A DNA stretch of 41,563 nucleotides, from the IMG/VR virus record IMGVR_UViG_3300020214_000040, positions 1-41,563 of that record. One strand, given 5' to 3'. The number at the start of each line of letters is the position of its first letter. The stretch's first letter is position 1. A program made the translations under genes and the position numbers. The DNA is from a virus. The notes beneath the pieces are model-generated. The model worked only from the letters and a program-made list of their open reading frames with translations, ran no database searches and was not told the origin of the DNA. This document shows, one piece after another, positions 687 through 27,381 of this stretch.

Positions 687-843
687 AATAAAATCCTATC
701 AGTTGATGTTCCTTGTTTAATATTGCCCTTGTATATTCAATACGATTGTTATCTATCCATTCTACCAAATCAAATCTACTTTGTCCAATTAAAGTATTTC
801 TGACTTGTTTGTAATCATATATCACCATCTCCTTTCTTTCCAT
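679..843 (-). CDS. Hypothetical protein, about 54 aa (start uncertain)
   Basis: Unrecognised small charged protein ending LIGFYYE. The frame is open from an ATG at 885, but that start would overlap the upstream gene by 71 nt. I chose the in-frame ATG at 843, which has AGAGG about 11 nt upstream. A third possibility is ATG 828 or GTG 825, just behind a strong AAAGGAG that is rather too close. The C-terminal two thirds (VIYDYKQVRNTLIGQ onward) are common to all choices. The stop overlaps the next gene by 8 nt. Confidence 0.5.
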   Translation of the reverse strand: MERKEMVIYDYKQVRNTLIGQSRFDLVEWIDNNRIEYTRAILNKEHQLIGFYYE

Positions 844-1168
844 TTCCAATATCGCCTCTAATAATTGCTTTTTCAAATTCAGCAATGGTCATTCCTTTCT
901 GTATAATATCATTAAAGTATTCTATATTCTTTGTTAATTCTCTGTAATTGGAAGAATTTGGATTATAAAAGTATTCTTTAAGATGACCAATTTTGTTTTG
1001 GCCGGTTGAATATTCAAATATTCTTGCGTTCCAATTGTCTGGTTTAAAACCAAACTCATTTTCACACATTTGTTTTGCTCTACTAACTGCTTCTTGTACG
1101 GAATTAATAGAATCTACTTTAACTGGTAGTCTAAATTCTACAATATAGTATTGATCAAATTTAGGCAT
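815..1168 (-). CDS. Hypothetical protein, 117 aa
   Basis: Unrecognised. It begins MPKFDQYYIVEFRLPVKV, an alternating pattern suggesting an N-terminal beta strand, followed by a helix (SVQEAVSRAKQMCENEFGF). The C-terminus is lysine/glycine-rich (GNGKKGDGDI). No catalytic motif is apparent. The ATG lies one base after the TGA of the small membrane protein at 1170-1307, and no strong SD is seen, so translation probably depends on re-initiation from that gene. Confidence 0.65.
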   Translation of the reverse strand: MPKFDQYYIVEFRLPVKVDSINSVQEAVSRAKQMCENEFGFKPDNWNARIFEYSTGQNKIGHLKEYFYNPNSSNYRELTKNIEYFNDIIQKGMTIAEFEKAIIRGDIGNGKKGDGDI

Positions 1169-1169
1169 A

Positions 1170-1307
1170 TCAAGCCAAAATGTACGCTATTACTACTATG
1201 ATAGCAAGAGGCAAAATAAGTATTGCTACTGGAATCAATAATACTGAACCAATTGAAAGCAAAAATATTCCCCAACAACACCACAAGAAAAATGTAAACT
1301 TTGACAC
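1170..1307 (-). CDS. Very small hydrophobic membrane protein, 45 aa
   Basis: A GTG codon directly follows the TAA of the 540-aa gene (TAAGTG) and opens a 45-codon frame that ends one base before the ATG of the next gene. This spacing fits the packing of the whole region. The product starts MSKFTFFLWCCWGIF. Nearly all of residues 4-45 are hydrophobic, enough for two short membrane passes with a break near the proline at residue 26. There are no charged residues after Lys3. The function is unknown, and a holin-like or regulatory role cannot be distinguished from sequence. Its position immediately after a possible membrane-linked ATPase gene is worth noting. Confidence 0.55.
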   Translation of the reverse strand: MSKFTFFLWCCWGIFLLSIGSVLLIPVAILILPLAIIVVIAYILA

Positions 1308-2930
1308 TTAGCCCACCCTTTTAATTTGTGAATCTCGTGGAACTTTGATGATAAAATGTTCACCTGATTCATCAACAGAACATACGCCTGATTTTGAATC
1401 AATAATGTGGTTTGAATCCAACCTAAATAGTAACTTGCCAATACGAACTAAATGCCAACCGAAATTTGGTAGGTATTCTATGACATAATCCAGAGTTCCA
1501 TACAAAGGCAAATCTATTGTTTTAATTTTAATTTCACCTTTATGGAGAGAAATCGGAGTCTCCTTGTAAAGTTGTAACATAAGATGACTTAATCTTTTGT
1601 CTGCCAAATTGCGGAACTCACGGAACATACTATCAGTAATACCACTTGAATAGTGGTCATATTCATGAATTATTGTTGCCAATATTGCTTTGATTGTACC
1701 GTTCTCTGCCAAGTCTTTAGAAATCAAAATTTTTCTTTCTTCCTTGCTTGACATATTAATTGTAATGCCCTCAATAGATACTTCTTCATTTGGTTTAAAC
1801 ACAGCAAGTGGATTCAGCATTTCACCTAGTCCCGGTTCAAAAAATGATGCAATCTTCATTGCTTCAACAAGTTTTGGATATTGATCAACATCTTCTTCGA
1901 TATCGAACTTAGCGCTTTCGGAGATACAATCTTCACCTTTGTCAATAGCACAACCTATTGTTAGAAATATAAAAGCAGCATTTGTCGTAACAACAATTGG
2001 TCTTTTGCCAGCAGTCTTTACCAAAGAAATAAAGCCAGCAATTAGTGCTTGCTGTGGTGAAACGATTACTGCATTTTTCCCATTAACTTCGTGAAAACAT
2101 TCTTTCCACAATTTAGATGGCGAAGTGTATGCCCAATGAATTTCACTAATCTCTGTAAATTCAATTAGATTATAATTAATGACCTTATCCAACAAATAAT
2201 TTTTAATTAGATCCTTATCTTGACACTGGGCAATAGCTTTTGAAATCTTGACACGCTCAGTATTAGGATATTTCAGAGCGCGCTCTTCATTCATTTCTGC
2301 ATTTTTAAGGCAATAGTCAAACAAACTAATTCTGTCATTGTCATTATATTTGTGAACCAACACTGTCTTGTGATAGATTCGTTCAGTCATATCATACTTT
2401 TTAAGAAATGATACCCCGTTATATTCACAGTCATAAATGACTTCTCTGTTCTCAGAGAAATATATTTCATGATCATTATAAATTTTAAACATATTCGGTG
2501 TTGCACGAATATATACAGCAAATTCATAAGGAACTTGTTTAATTCCGTCAACAAGTTCTTTGCGCCATTCACCGTTATCTTTGGCATTAGAGATAACTTC
2601 ACGATAAATTTGCCATTCGCTATCCCAACTCAAAGTACCAGCATCAATAGTAAAAGAAGATTCTTTTACATATGTGTCATAATCATACACAACGCATTGA
2701 ATTCCATCTTCTTCTCTTGATCTATATCTAAGTTGATAATCACCCTTGTCGTCAAAGCCAACAAATACAAAATCAATATTCATTCTCAATGCTGAGATTG
2801 GGGCATATTTAATACCTGAGCCAAATTGACCAATTGTATCTGGGTCTGACCTTTTGGTTGAAAGACCAAGTTTTTCCAAATGCAGTCTATTAACCCCGGC
2901 TGACTTATTCGATATCCTGATGTATTTCAT
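1308..2930 (-). CDS. GHKL-like ATPase with permuted motifs plus HEXXH metallopeptidase motif, 540 aa
   Basis: The N-terminus looks like the second half of a GHKL/Hsp90 ATPase core. A degenerate motif II region (NKSAGVNRLHLEKLGLSTK, residues 8-26) is followed by IGQFGSGIKYA (33-43), closely like the Hsp90/MutL motif III. A sequence resembling motif I, REVISNAKDNG (E111, N115, D118), follows about 70 residues later, whereas it comes first in canonical GHKL proteins. The C-terminal half has a HEYDH motif (H422, E423, H426) in a helix-like context, matching zincin metallopeptidases. The start has AAAGG upstream. Phage T4 rIIA is a GHKL protein with the usual order, so this is at most a distant relative. 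Catalysis of either activity is inferred from motifs only. What sits between residues 130 and 400 is not recognised. Confidence 0.6.
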   Translation of the reverse strand: MKYIRISNKSAGVNRLHLEKLGLSTKRSDPDTIGQFGSGIKYAPISALRMNIDFVFVGFDDKGDYQLRYRSREEDGIQCVVYDYDTYVKESSFTIDAGTLSWDSEWQIYREVISNAKDNGEWRKELVDGIKQVPYEFAVYIRATPNMFKIYNDHEIYFSENREVIYDCEYNGVSFLKKYDMTERIYHKTVLVHKYNDNDRISLFDYCLKNAEMNEERALKYPNTERVKISKAIAQCQDKDLIKNYLLDKVINYNLIEFTEISEIHWAYTSPSKLWKECFHEVNGKNAVIVSPQQALIAGFISLVKTAGKRPIVVTTNAAFIFLTIGCAIDKGEDCISESAKFDIEEDVDQYPKLVEAMKIASFFEPGLGEMLNPLAVFKPNEEVSIEGITINMSSKEERKILISKDLAENGTIKAILATIIHEYDHYSSGITDSMFREFRNLADKRLSHLMLQLYKETPISLHKGEIKIKTIDLPLYGTLDYVIEYLPNFGWHLVRIGKLLFRLDSNHIIDSKSGVCSVDESGEHFIIKVPRDSQIKRVG

Positions 2931-3825: not shown

Positions 3826-4293
3826 TTAGCGGTATATTTCACCGATAGATTCACAATACATCTGACAAAATTCCATCATTGGATCGTCATCTTTTACTTC
3901 CATTTGAGCACCATCAAACCAATCTTGGAAATGATAAACCGCTCTATTGATAAATCCATCTTCATCAAGATAAACTTCAATAAAATCAGCAGGGCCACCC
4001 GTACTCAATTCAATTCTGATAACTGTTTGTTTGGAATGACCCAATGGGAACTCATATAAACTTGATTCATTGTACTCACTATTTTTGTAATACTCTTCAA
4101 CAAATTGATCAACCGCTTCTTCAGCAGGTTCTTCATTGTATGTCTTTGTGTATTCCTCAACAAAACGATCACGCTCATCGATAACCTGTTCATCAAATTG
4201 ACCATTTGTAGCCATAATCATTTTATTGATTGACTCATTCCTGGATTTGTATTCTCCAGCAATTCTGTCCTTACACCTTATTTTATCTGTCAT
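3826..4293 (-). CDS. Acidic hypothetical protein, 155 aa
   Basis: Unrecognised. It is very rich in D, E and Y, with a helical N-terminal half (QVIDERDRFVEEYTKTYNEE) and a probable beta-rich C-terminal half (TVIRIELSTGGPADFIEVYLDEDG) that ends in a cysteine-containing helix (FCQMYCESIGEIYR). The ATG has GGAGAAAA upstream and its stop lies 9 nt before the next ATG. Acidic proteins of this size in phage early regions are sometimes DNA mimics or host-takeover factors. Nothing in the sequence proves that here. Confidence 0.7.
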   Translation of the reverse strand: MTDKIRCKDRIAGEYKSRNESINKMIMATNGQFDEQVIDERDRFVEEYTKTYNEEPAEEAVDQFVEEYYKNSEYNESSLYEFPLGHSKQTVIRIELSTGGPADFIEVYLDEDGFINRAVYHFQDWFDGAQMEVKDDDPMMEFCQMYCESIGEIYR

Positions 4294-4507: not shown

Positions 4508-5473
4508 TTAGGCTTTTGCCCAAACCTGTTGTGGCAACAGATTCATTGGGAAATCAGGAAGGCGATTTGTCGTCAATTTCACGTTGTATCTGCTGACAAT
4601 AAGAAATGGCAAAGATGTAAATGTAACTGTTTGACCACTGCTAATCATAGCTTGAGCCTGAGCAATAACCAATGAAGGATTGCCAATCTTGGCTAATACT
4701 TCACTCATACGCTTTGGGTCAACTTTCTTACCATAACGATGATAAATGCAACCAAGAGCCGAAACCATTTGGTCACGGTACATTTCAGTGTTATTTGGAT
4801 ATGCAGTTTTGAGTGTTTCCAAAGTCTTAGCCAAAACTGAAGCGCCAGCATTTGTGTAAACTCTACGAACAGTAGCAACACATCTGATTTTGTTAATACC
4901 GGGGCCTTCTTCAAATGAAGCACCAACTTTTGCTACAACATTTGCAATACCAACAGCAATTGGGTCTCCAGACACAATGCCTGCCTTAAAGATTTGCGAA
5001 GGCGTTGGCTTTGTGTGTTCCTTATTGGTAAGAGCAAAGATTTGCGCTTCATCTTGGAGAGTCAAACCGAAATACACAAGCGCATTTACATTTGCATCTT
5101 TCATATTCATCTCATTCAAAGCGTGATAGCGATGGCTACCGTCAATGATTGCCAATGTGTTATCATCACGCATTGAGACTGTGATAACGCCAAGCAAATC
5201 TGGATTGAAATTCTTTACAATCCTATTGATCTTTGCTTTTAGTGGCTTCCGTTGATATGTATAATCAACGAACATTTCACTGACTTTGACCAATGACGAC
5301 ATCTTTGAAATATGTCCTTCATTAAAGTTTGCGCCAAGAGATTCGTATTTTGTAGCAATTGCTACATTTACAACTTTCTTGACTTCTTTTTGTGTTACTG
5401 TTTCAGCAGTGTTTTGTTTTAGCACGGCCTTCTCCTTTTCTTTGGTTTGTACGGTATTCTTTTTCCTTGGCAT
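4508..5473 (-). CDS. ParB/sulfiredoxin-fold protein (DUF6551-like), 321 aa
   Basis: A lysine-rich N-terminal tail (about 40 residues) precedes a ParB N-terminal-like core. YQRKPLKAKINRIVKNFNP resembles the strand and helix that carry the partner-binding surface. AIIDGSHRYHAL at about residues 114-125 matches the GxHRxxAL motif of ParB/Srx-fold proteins. The C-terminal part is helical (MSEVLAKIGNPSLVIAQAQAM) and resembles phage proteins annotated ParB-like nuclease or DUF6551. The fold binds CTP or acts as a kinase/nuclease in different families, and I cannot tell which applies. No ParA gene is seen, so plasmid-type partitioning is not implied. GGAGG stands upstream of the start. Confidence 0.7.
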   Translation of the reverse strand: MPRKKNTVQTKEKEKAVLKQNTAETVTQKEVKKVVNVAIATKYESLGANFNEGHISKMSSLVKVSEMFVDYTYQRKPLKAKINRIVKNFNPDLLGVITVSMRDDNTLAIIDGSHRYHALNEMNMKDANVNALVYFGLTLQDEAQIFALTNKEHTKPTPSQIFKAGIVSGDPIAVGIANVVAKVGASFEEGPGINKIRCVATVRRVYTNAGASVLAKTLETLKTAYPNNTEMYRDQMVSALGCIYHRYGKKVDPKRMSEVLAKIGNPSLVIAQAQAMISSGQTVTFTSLPFLIVSRYNVKLTTNRLPDFPMNLLPQQVWAKA

Positions 5474-5482
5474 ATTTGCCTC

Positions 5483-5653
5483 CTATTGGTTGGATATTGC
5501 TATTACATCACTACTTACTACTACTAAACTGCCAAACAAAGTGTCATTCATTTCTCTTGCCATCATCATATCAGCAATAGAAAGAGCCTCATCATATGTT
5601 TTGGCATATATTTCAGTTTCTTTGGTTACTTTGAGACAATACTTCGTTTCCAT
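5483..5653 (-). CDS. Hypothetical protein, 56 aa
   Basis: A 56-codon frame starting MEGlu-type (METKYCLKVTKE) fills the gap between the WhiB gene and the ParB-like gene, and its TAG sits right at the SD of the latter. It overlaps the WhiB 3' end by 41 nt. If that overlap is judged too long, one of the three consecutive ATGs at residues 29-31 could be the start. The pattern KVTKETEIYAKTYDEALSIADM suggests strand-strand-helix. No function is recognised. Confidence 0.5.
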   Translation of the reverse strand: METKYCLKVTKETEIYAKTYDEALSIADMMMAREMNDTLFGSLVVVSSDVIAISNQ

Positions 5654-5948
5654 ATTTAATCACCAATTCCTTGGCTTCCTCCTTTGTTAAATTAATAATT
5701 GATCTTGTAATTTTACCTCTTTCACGTGGCGTAAAGCCACCCCAAACACCAAACTTTTCCTGATTGCTTACAGCAAAAGCTAGGCATTCGTGAGCAACAA
5801 CGCAATGATGACACATACTTTTTGCCAACTTAATTGTGTGCTTATCATCAGAGTAAAAATCAATCTGAGTAGCCGATTTTAGACAATAGGCTTTACTTCT
5901 CCAACTCTCACCCATATTTACTTCATCCATTTGATAGTTATCACTCAT
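5613..5948 (-). CDS. whiB: WhiB-like iron-sulfur transcription regulator, 111 aa
   Basis: This has the diagnostic layout of Wbl proteins: four cysteines at C22, C46, C49 and C55 (CHHCVVAHEC gives Cx2Cx5C) that ligate a 4Fe-4S cluster. The GVWGG turn is at residues 67-71, followed by a basic region TPRERGKITRS. Family members bind the sigma-A C-terminal domain and modulate transcription in Actinobacteria. Phage copies such as TM4 WhiB can repress host whiB2. The start at 5948 is chosen because AAAGGA lies five bases upstream and overlaps the previous stop by 8 nt. A longer frame back to 6005 lacks support. This gene is strong evidence for an actinobacterial host. Confidence 0.93.
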   Translation of the reverse strand: MSDNYQMDEVNMGESWRSKAYCLKSATQIDFYSDDKHTIKLAKSMCHHCVVAHECLAFAVSNQEKFGVWGGFTPRERGKITRSIINLTKEEAKELVIKYGNEVLSQSNQRN

Positions 5949-6336
5949 CACTATCCTTTCCAAAGTCTGATTCATAGAATGGTAGCATTTTAGATTCTTC
6001 TTCAAATTGCGGGATTATTTCTTCATTCGTTATTCTGAAATACTCTTGCCTTGTTTCTTCATCTGTACCAGACAAAATTGATTGAATGTGATACAGAATC
6101 GCAATAACTACACCGTATAATTTATCTTCATCTACTGTATCTTCATCATCGTGATACAAGTTAATAATATTCATCATAGCGACCATACGACTATTAGAGT
6201 CGTCATAATCAGTTTGTTCTATGAATGCTGTAACTTGTTTCAACAATTCGTGATAATCAGAAGCGTCAACTATACCATCTGGTACTGCGTCAGGCTCATT
6301 TTTATTAATATTGCTAAAATCGTAGGGATTAAACAT
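5941..6336 (-). CDS. Acidic hypothetical protein, 131 aa
   Basis: Unrecognised. It is strongly acidic (NLYHDDEDTVDEDKL), with a hydrophobic helix in the middle (YGVVIAILYHIQSILSG, residues about 74-90) that looks like a packed helix more than a membrane segment given the acidic flanks. AAGAGG precedes the ATG. It is directly upstream of, and coupled to, the WhiB gene (ATGAGTGATGA junction). Confidence 0.7.
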   Translation of the reverse strand: MFNPYDFSNINKNEPDAVPDGIVDASDYHELLKQVTAFIEQTDYDDSNSRMVAMMNIINLYHDDEDTVDEDKLYGVVIAILYHIQSILSGTDEETRQEYFRITNEEIIPQFEEESKMLPFYESDFGKDSDE

Positions 6337-9188: not shown

Positions 9189-9234
9189 ATTTTTCCTTTG
9201 TTTTTCCCTACCATTATTGATAGGAGATCTTTTG

Positions 9235-9308
9235 CGCTGCCAATAGGATTTGAACCTATAACCTACAGATTAGAAGTCTATTGCTCTATCCAATTGAGCT
9301 ATGGCAGC
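9235..9308 (-). tRNA. tRNA-Arg (anticodon UCU)
   Basis: Complete cloverleaf on the minus strand: acceptor GCTGCCA pairs fully with TGGCAGC, D-stem GCTC/GAGC, anticodon stem ATAGA/TCTGT with loop CTTCTAA giving anticodon TCT, and T-arm ATAGG-TTCAAAT-CCTAT. The discriminator is G and CCA is not encoded. UCU reads AGA/AGG codons, which are common in this AT-rich genome, so it probably supplements the host pool during late translation. It sits inside the operon between two protein genes. Confidence 0.95.
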
Positions 9309-27297: not shown

Positions 27298-27308
27298 TTT
27301 TTCCTTTG

Positions 27309-27381
<73 letters not shown>

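Follow-up and report, generated by a model that had tools for sequence, protein, structure and literature searches.

P0001, a 540-aa tailed-phage protein, is probably a naturally circularly permuted phage ATPase of the GHKL (Hsp90/MORC-like) type, with a WLM/SprT-like zincin fused to it. That its GHKL domain is permuted is close to certain. The first-pass annotation of this DNA had proposed a permuted GHKL ATPase joined to a metallopeptidase motif and lying next to a small membrane protein. Of that proposal, the circular permutation is well supported and the zincin supported, but the membrane gene is not conserved and the His that serves WLM/SprT proteins as third zinc ligand is absent.

The gene and its distribution

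The window, meaning the whole stretch of 41,563 nucleotides that was analysed, comes from a tailed phage, with PHROGs matches to terminase-like, DNA polymerase, DnaB-like helicase, RecA-like, methyltransferase and tail genes. P0001 is encoded by an ORF at 1308-2930(-) that starts with ATG and is preceded at 5 bases by AAAGG, a plausible ribosome site. About 70 related loci were fetched from IMG/VR, and the gene is borne by a family of viruses infecting freshwater bacteria. An identical protein is present in a 58.9 kb IMG/VR contig (L003/L025). Residue invariance was scored over 53 homologous loci representing 52 distinct proteins, most of them 35-65% identical to the window protein, and motif order over 54 sequences with the window protein included.

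Plain scans of P0001 against Pfam, NCBIfam and PADLOC gave nothing above cut-off or convincing, and a plasmid search for relatives returned no match. The GTDB genomes contributed one short MAG contig (L090, Kapaibacterium, 5.3 kb), on which a member of the family occurs together with part of the DUF6551 neighbour described below; it is likely a phage contig binned with a Kapaibacterium genome. The window itself carries genes for tRNA-Arg (9234-9308(-)) and tRNA-Lys (27308-27381(-)). A WhiB-like regulator gene at 5613-6005(-) suggests an actinobacterial host for its phage.

GHKL motifs in a permuted order

The permuted Bergerat (GHKL) domain spans residues 1-145 (2496-2930(-)), as defined by profile comparisons and the fold model. 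Along it, the G1 (adenine) strand with N8 (2907-2909(-)) comes first and is followed by the ATP lid (S24-K26), the GxFGxG helix (34-39), four strands, the N-box helix and further strands. By alignment, N8 stands where motif G1 (DxGxG) normally has the Asp that contacts adenine, and would take its role. The lid and G2 motif STKRSDPDTIGQFGSGIK cover residues 24-41 (2808-2861(-)). The N-box helix, displaced beyond G2, occupies residues 105-118 (2577-2618(-)) and contributes E111, N115 and D118. The motifs lie where the first-pass annotation had placed them (LGLSTK 21-26, IGQFGSGIKYA 33-43, REVISNAKDNG 110-120 and HEYDH 422-426), and the permuted order it described is borne out by all 54 sequences, in which GxFGxG stands ahead of the N-box. 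The superfamily order is N-box, G1, G2, so the protein is filed as a permutant variant.

Across the 53 loci, N8, S24, K26, G34, G37, G39, E111, N115 and D118 are invariant in the GHKL part, as are N214, E215 and R217 in the domain that follows and H422, E423, D425, H426, D433, F439, R440, A443 and D444 in the C-terminal part. Because of this invariance, the motifs stand far above chance. The N-box pattern ExxxNxxD, the lid and GxxGxG are thus intact throughout the set. In G1, by contrast with the superfamily pattern, all 53 loci have Asn at the Asp position and the GxG is not kept, so the choice of nucleotide may differ from the usual one. In L003, the contig that carries the identical gene, only 12 open codons precede the ATG, and the extensions in relatives are also short; a second N-box is therefore not concealed upstream of the start.

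Profile evidence for circular permutation

The same 15 diverse members were made into two profiles: A4 keeps the native order, and in A3 residues 100-145 are shifted to the front. Against PDB sequences, HMMER found 8 matches with the native profile and 87 with the un-permuted one, the latter mostly Hsp90 and aligned from the N-box through G2. Individually these A3 matches are weak (E mostly 0.04-0.3); MORC2 falls below 0.001 with A3 and A4 alike, and with A4 its N-box is aligned separately, out of order and without significance of its own. When compared by hhalign with an Hsp90 N-domain profile made from HtpG and 20 bacterial Hsp90s, the un-permuted profile aligns over 113 columns (P 1e-6) and the native order over 15. 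The Hsp90 score rises only when the chain is cut between about residues 41 and 106; it is 43.4 for the intact profile and no higher than 29.9 or 37.1 once one half or the other is shuffled. The effect is visible with profiles only, as single-sequence Pfam scans differ hardly at all between un-permuted and native segments.

A further comparison is provided by phage proteins that carry the motifs in ordinary order. A BFVD structural match, A0A5J6DBI2, led to Erwinia phage pEp_SNUABM_01, whose 382-aa gp197 was chosen by protein length. It belongs to phrog_6077, with relatives in 112 phage records, some of them labelled "histidine kinase-like ATPase" or "chaperon protein". In all ten aligned members, the N-box (23-32) precedes G2 (72-84), and one sibling lies above the Pfam HATPase_c_3 cut-off. 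The P0001 profile matches these siblings in two non-colinear blocks: residue 2 onward aligns with sibling residue 42 onward, and residues 90-121 align out of order with sibling residues 5-34 (P 7e-7). Placing the N-box segment in front raises the score from 97.8 in native order to 136-139 (maximum 138.9). With the N-box half shuffled (n=100), the score stays at 98.0+/-2.5 and never exceeds 105.2. Beyond the GHKL part, the match extends across the following domain as far as residue 324 (P 3e-21).

Searches in native order, taken alone, yield weak GHKL matches only. This could be read to mean that residues 8-43 are GHKL-like by descent and that REVISNAKD is a chance N-box match within another fold. 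Such a coincidence is very improbable given the shuffling controls, the out-of-order profile matches, the ordinary-order siblings and the Foldseek results given below. A circular permutation is well supported because the out-of-order matches, the cut-point scan with its shuffle controls, the siblings with their common next domain and the GHKL fold call all point to it.

Predicted structure and the Hsp90-middle-like domain

Models were made of the full-length protein (16 sequences, pLDDT 83.5, pTM 0.61) and of the two-domain segment 1-245 (55 sequences, pLDDT 89.8, pTM 0.87). They place a strand at 3-9, the lid, a helix at 38-49, strands at 54-94, the N-box helix at 105-118 and strands at 122-142 before a second domain begins. 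For the 1-245 model, the best Foldseek match is the AMP-PNP-bound (closed) form of Hsc82 (E 2e-3, TM 0.42), and the top 17 matches are all Hsp90 or gyrase, with no E-value passing 0.001. The sequential TM-scores are low, which is to be expected of a permutant. The full model matches Hsp90 at E 1e-6 and MC-Hsp90 3q6m, an Hsp90 without its N-domain, at E 3.4e-4.

By sequence and model, the strands after the N-box lead straight into an Hsp90-middle-like domain (residues 146-240, 2211-2495(-)), assigned from the 3q6m match and the sibling profile match and common to the ordinary-order siblings. Within it, MNEER (family LNxxR; residues 213-217, 2280-2294(-)) is a candidate catalytic arginine loop contributing R217. 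It was aligned with LNVSR of Hsp90, a sequence match that is not significant. Residues 143-345 do not match the Hsp90 middle domain significantly by sequence (P about 0.1), and the curated Hsp90 profile PF00183 does not match P0001. An alpha/beta linker region follows at residues 241-342 (1905-2210(-)), defined by the model and aligned in part with the siblings.

Permuted and ordinary forms in related phages

The members of phrog_6077, including gp197 and Pseudomonas phage Ab19 gp34, share with P0001 the G1-lid-G2 segment, the N-box, the Hsp90-middle-like domain with LxxDR (at about 200-235 in nine of the ten aligned) and part of the next region. They differ in having the ordinary motif order and a shorter C-terminus, and none of the ten has an HExxH. 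The Asp of G1 is mostly departed from in these proteins too. A PADLOC match to TmtA, a defence protein, covers residues 20-81 of the ordinary-order sibling P0003 (L126:26094-27242; E 2.5e-6).

The permuted form is itself found in a second family, phrog_8203, which includes Pseudomonas phage YuA gp29. P0001 matches it over residues 1-259 (E 2.7e-18), as do 20 of 20 members of the A2 set. These YuA-type proteins have the permuted order and the same domains, but are about 390 aa long, carry EExxH where P0001 has HExxH, and end without the C-terminal beta domain. The family is unannotated in PHROGs, and single records call its members "HATPase" (e.g. phage Epa38), "ATP-binding protein" or "hydrolase, metallopeptidase". 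A YuA-type-like gene broken up over several frames is present in Escherichia phage ERS-1 (L127, PP337211.1), a record marked UNVERIFIED.

Profile alignment to the phrog_6077 siblings indicates that one protein occurs in both wirings. We presume the ordinary order to be the ancestral one, since it is shared by the other GHKL families known to us. Within the Mesyanzhinovviridae, YuA (Yuavirus) gp28 and Ab19 (Abidjanvirus) gp33 are homologous (47% over 68 aa, E 7e-15) and are small, apparently single-pass membrane proteins. The former lies directly upstream of the permuted gp29 and the latter directly upstream of the ordinary gp34. The presence of a homologous small gene upstream of both forms suggests that the two may do the same job.

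The zincin-like domain

Turning to the C-terminal half, residues 343-458 (1557-1904(-)) very likely adopt a zincin fold, as indicated by the model, Foldseek and profile searches. The model contains a helix, three strands, the HExxH helix and a further helix. HEYDH (residues 422-426, 1653-1667(-)) lies on the modelled active-site helix as in WLM/SprT proteins, within the 415-430 stretch where a zincin helix had been anticipated, and HExDH is kept in 53 of 53 loci. In Foldseek, this part of the full model gives modest-scoring matches to Spartan, selecase and Wss1, and the family profile matches Wss1 at E 1.7e-4. The curated Pfam cut-off is not reached, with SprT-like giving a best E of 0.005 over 15 members and the window protein falling below the cut-off. 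A C-terminal beta domain (residues 459-540, 1311-1556(-)), defined by model and alignment, is absent from shorter members.

The metallopeptidase originally proposed from the HEXXH motif is therefore upheld as a zincin by fold and by the Wss1 profile, but the usual third ligand is absent and distant relatives have EExxH. The family pattern is [HE]ExxHxxxGxxD, against HExxHxxxGxHD in Wss1, and all members lack the third-ligand His (GxH) of WLM/SprT, with GITD where Wss1-type proteins have GPHD. D433 or D444 may serve as a substitute metal ligand. Relatives keeping both the GHKL and HExxH motifs, which would define a family, comprise all 53 loci; the more distant YuA-type members have EExxH, and two loci (L021 and L101) have neither version. 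Catalysis is accordingly plausible in the window's clade and doubtful in other members. P0001 has about an even chance of being an active protease.

A less likely alternative is that the permuted GHKL ATPase carries a non-catalytic zincin, structural or peptide-binding, and acts as a membrane- or DNA-linked ATP switch without proteolysis. YuA-type relatives retain the domain in spite of their EExxH, and no member has the third ligand of WLM proteins, both of which fit this idea. Against it, H422, E423, H426, D433 and D444 are invariant in 53 of 53 loci, a degree of conservation not called for at a dead site.

Neighbouring genes

The adjoining 45-aa membrane protein singled out by the first-pass annotation exists as an ORF at 1170-1307(-), between the P0001 gene and the next gene downstream. 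It occurs in five of 68 loci, the window's virus included, and was rejected as a general partner. A better candidate partner is that next gene, which encodes a conserved 117-aa protein (815-1168(-)) and adjoins the P0001-type gene in 64 of 68 loci. Its product is 55-87% identical in most relatives and has no convincing family match; no homologue was recognised by eye among the genes beside YuA-type members. Upstream, an acidic 155-aa protein (3826-4293(-)) is conserved in 66 of 68 loci. A DUF6551 / ParB-DndB-like protein (4508-5473(-); Pfam E 7e-20) is encoded in 32 of 68.

Comparison with known systems

P0001 resembles Hsp90 and MORC ATPases in its motifs and, by model, in its predicted Bergerat and middle-domain fold. 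It differs from them in its permuted chain, in the Asn that replaces the G1 Asp and in lacking the Hsp90 C-terminal and MORC CW parts. With Wss1/WLM and SprT-like metalloproteases it shares the domain fold and HExxHxxxGxxD; unlike in Wss1/WLM, the third-ligand His of GxHD is absent and the zincin is fused to an ATPase.

A well-known phage GHKL protein is rIIA, and BFVD lists RIIA models among the matches to P0001, at weak scores. P0001 might then be a divergent rIIA with ordinary wiring, a reading that is extremely improbable. T4 rIIA has the N-box first (RELITNMID, then DFGPGM, then GGFGLGS), in agreement with the order first claimed for it, and no zincin was found in it. Moreover, P0001 matches no rIIA family, and pEp_SNUABM_01 encodes rIIA/rIIB apart from the sibling gp197. 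Membership of rIIA was rejected on the differing motif order and the lack of a profile match. A survey of jumbo phages describes rIIA orthologues as an N-terminal GHKL domain with a variable C-terminus, and SprT-like phage peptidases as separate proteins (PMC7824862). A GHKL-zincin combination is absent from that survey's description of these proteins (PMC7824862). Among the open-access papers searched, no published precedent for a permuted GHKL domain was found.

Proposed mechanism and implications

P0001 is quite likely to bind ATP. ATP and Mg would be bound at N8, the lid, G2 and E111/N115/D118; as the lid closed, the following domain would present its R217 to the gamma phosphate. A pair of protomers might then shut around a protein target, or a protein-DNA one, in the manner of an Hsp90/MORC clamp, and in the window's clade the C-terminal zincin could cut the target so held. 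The target would probably be a host or host-defence protein, perhaps bound to DNA, since proteins on DNA are what relatives of the Wss1 and SprT kind cleave. As a whole, an ATP-coupled clamp-protease is a tentative proposal, and ATP-driven clamp action and self-regulation are properties that we infer. The permutation is the well-supported part; clamp-protease action is one candidate purpose for the machine.

We suggest, with some reserve, that this may be the first described natural circular permutation of a GHKL ATPase, that both forms may interchange in one slot of related phages and that one branch may have become an ATP-gated metalloprotease clamp for host takeover. The findings give an identity to phrog_8203, an unannotated family that includes YuA-like Pseudomonas phages, and link a GHKL ATPase with a Wss1-like protease domain within one phage protein. 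In GHKL machines such as Hsp90, gyrase, MutL, MORC and histidine kinases, motion at the ATP site reaches the next domain via one chain path. In P0001 it is instead the N-box side that joins the next domain; sister phages keep the ordinary wiring. The two wirings amount to a natural experiment, through which the connections that ATP-driven coupling needs become directly testable.
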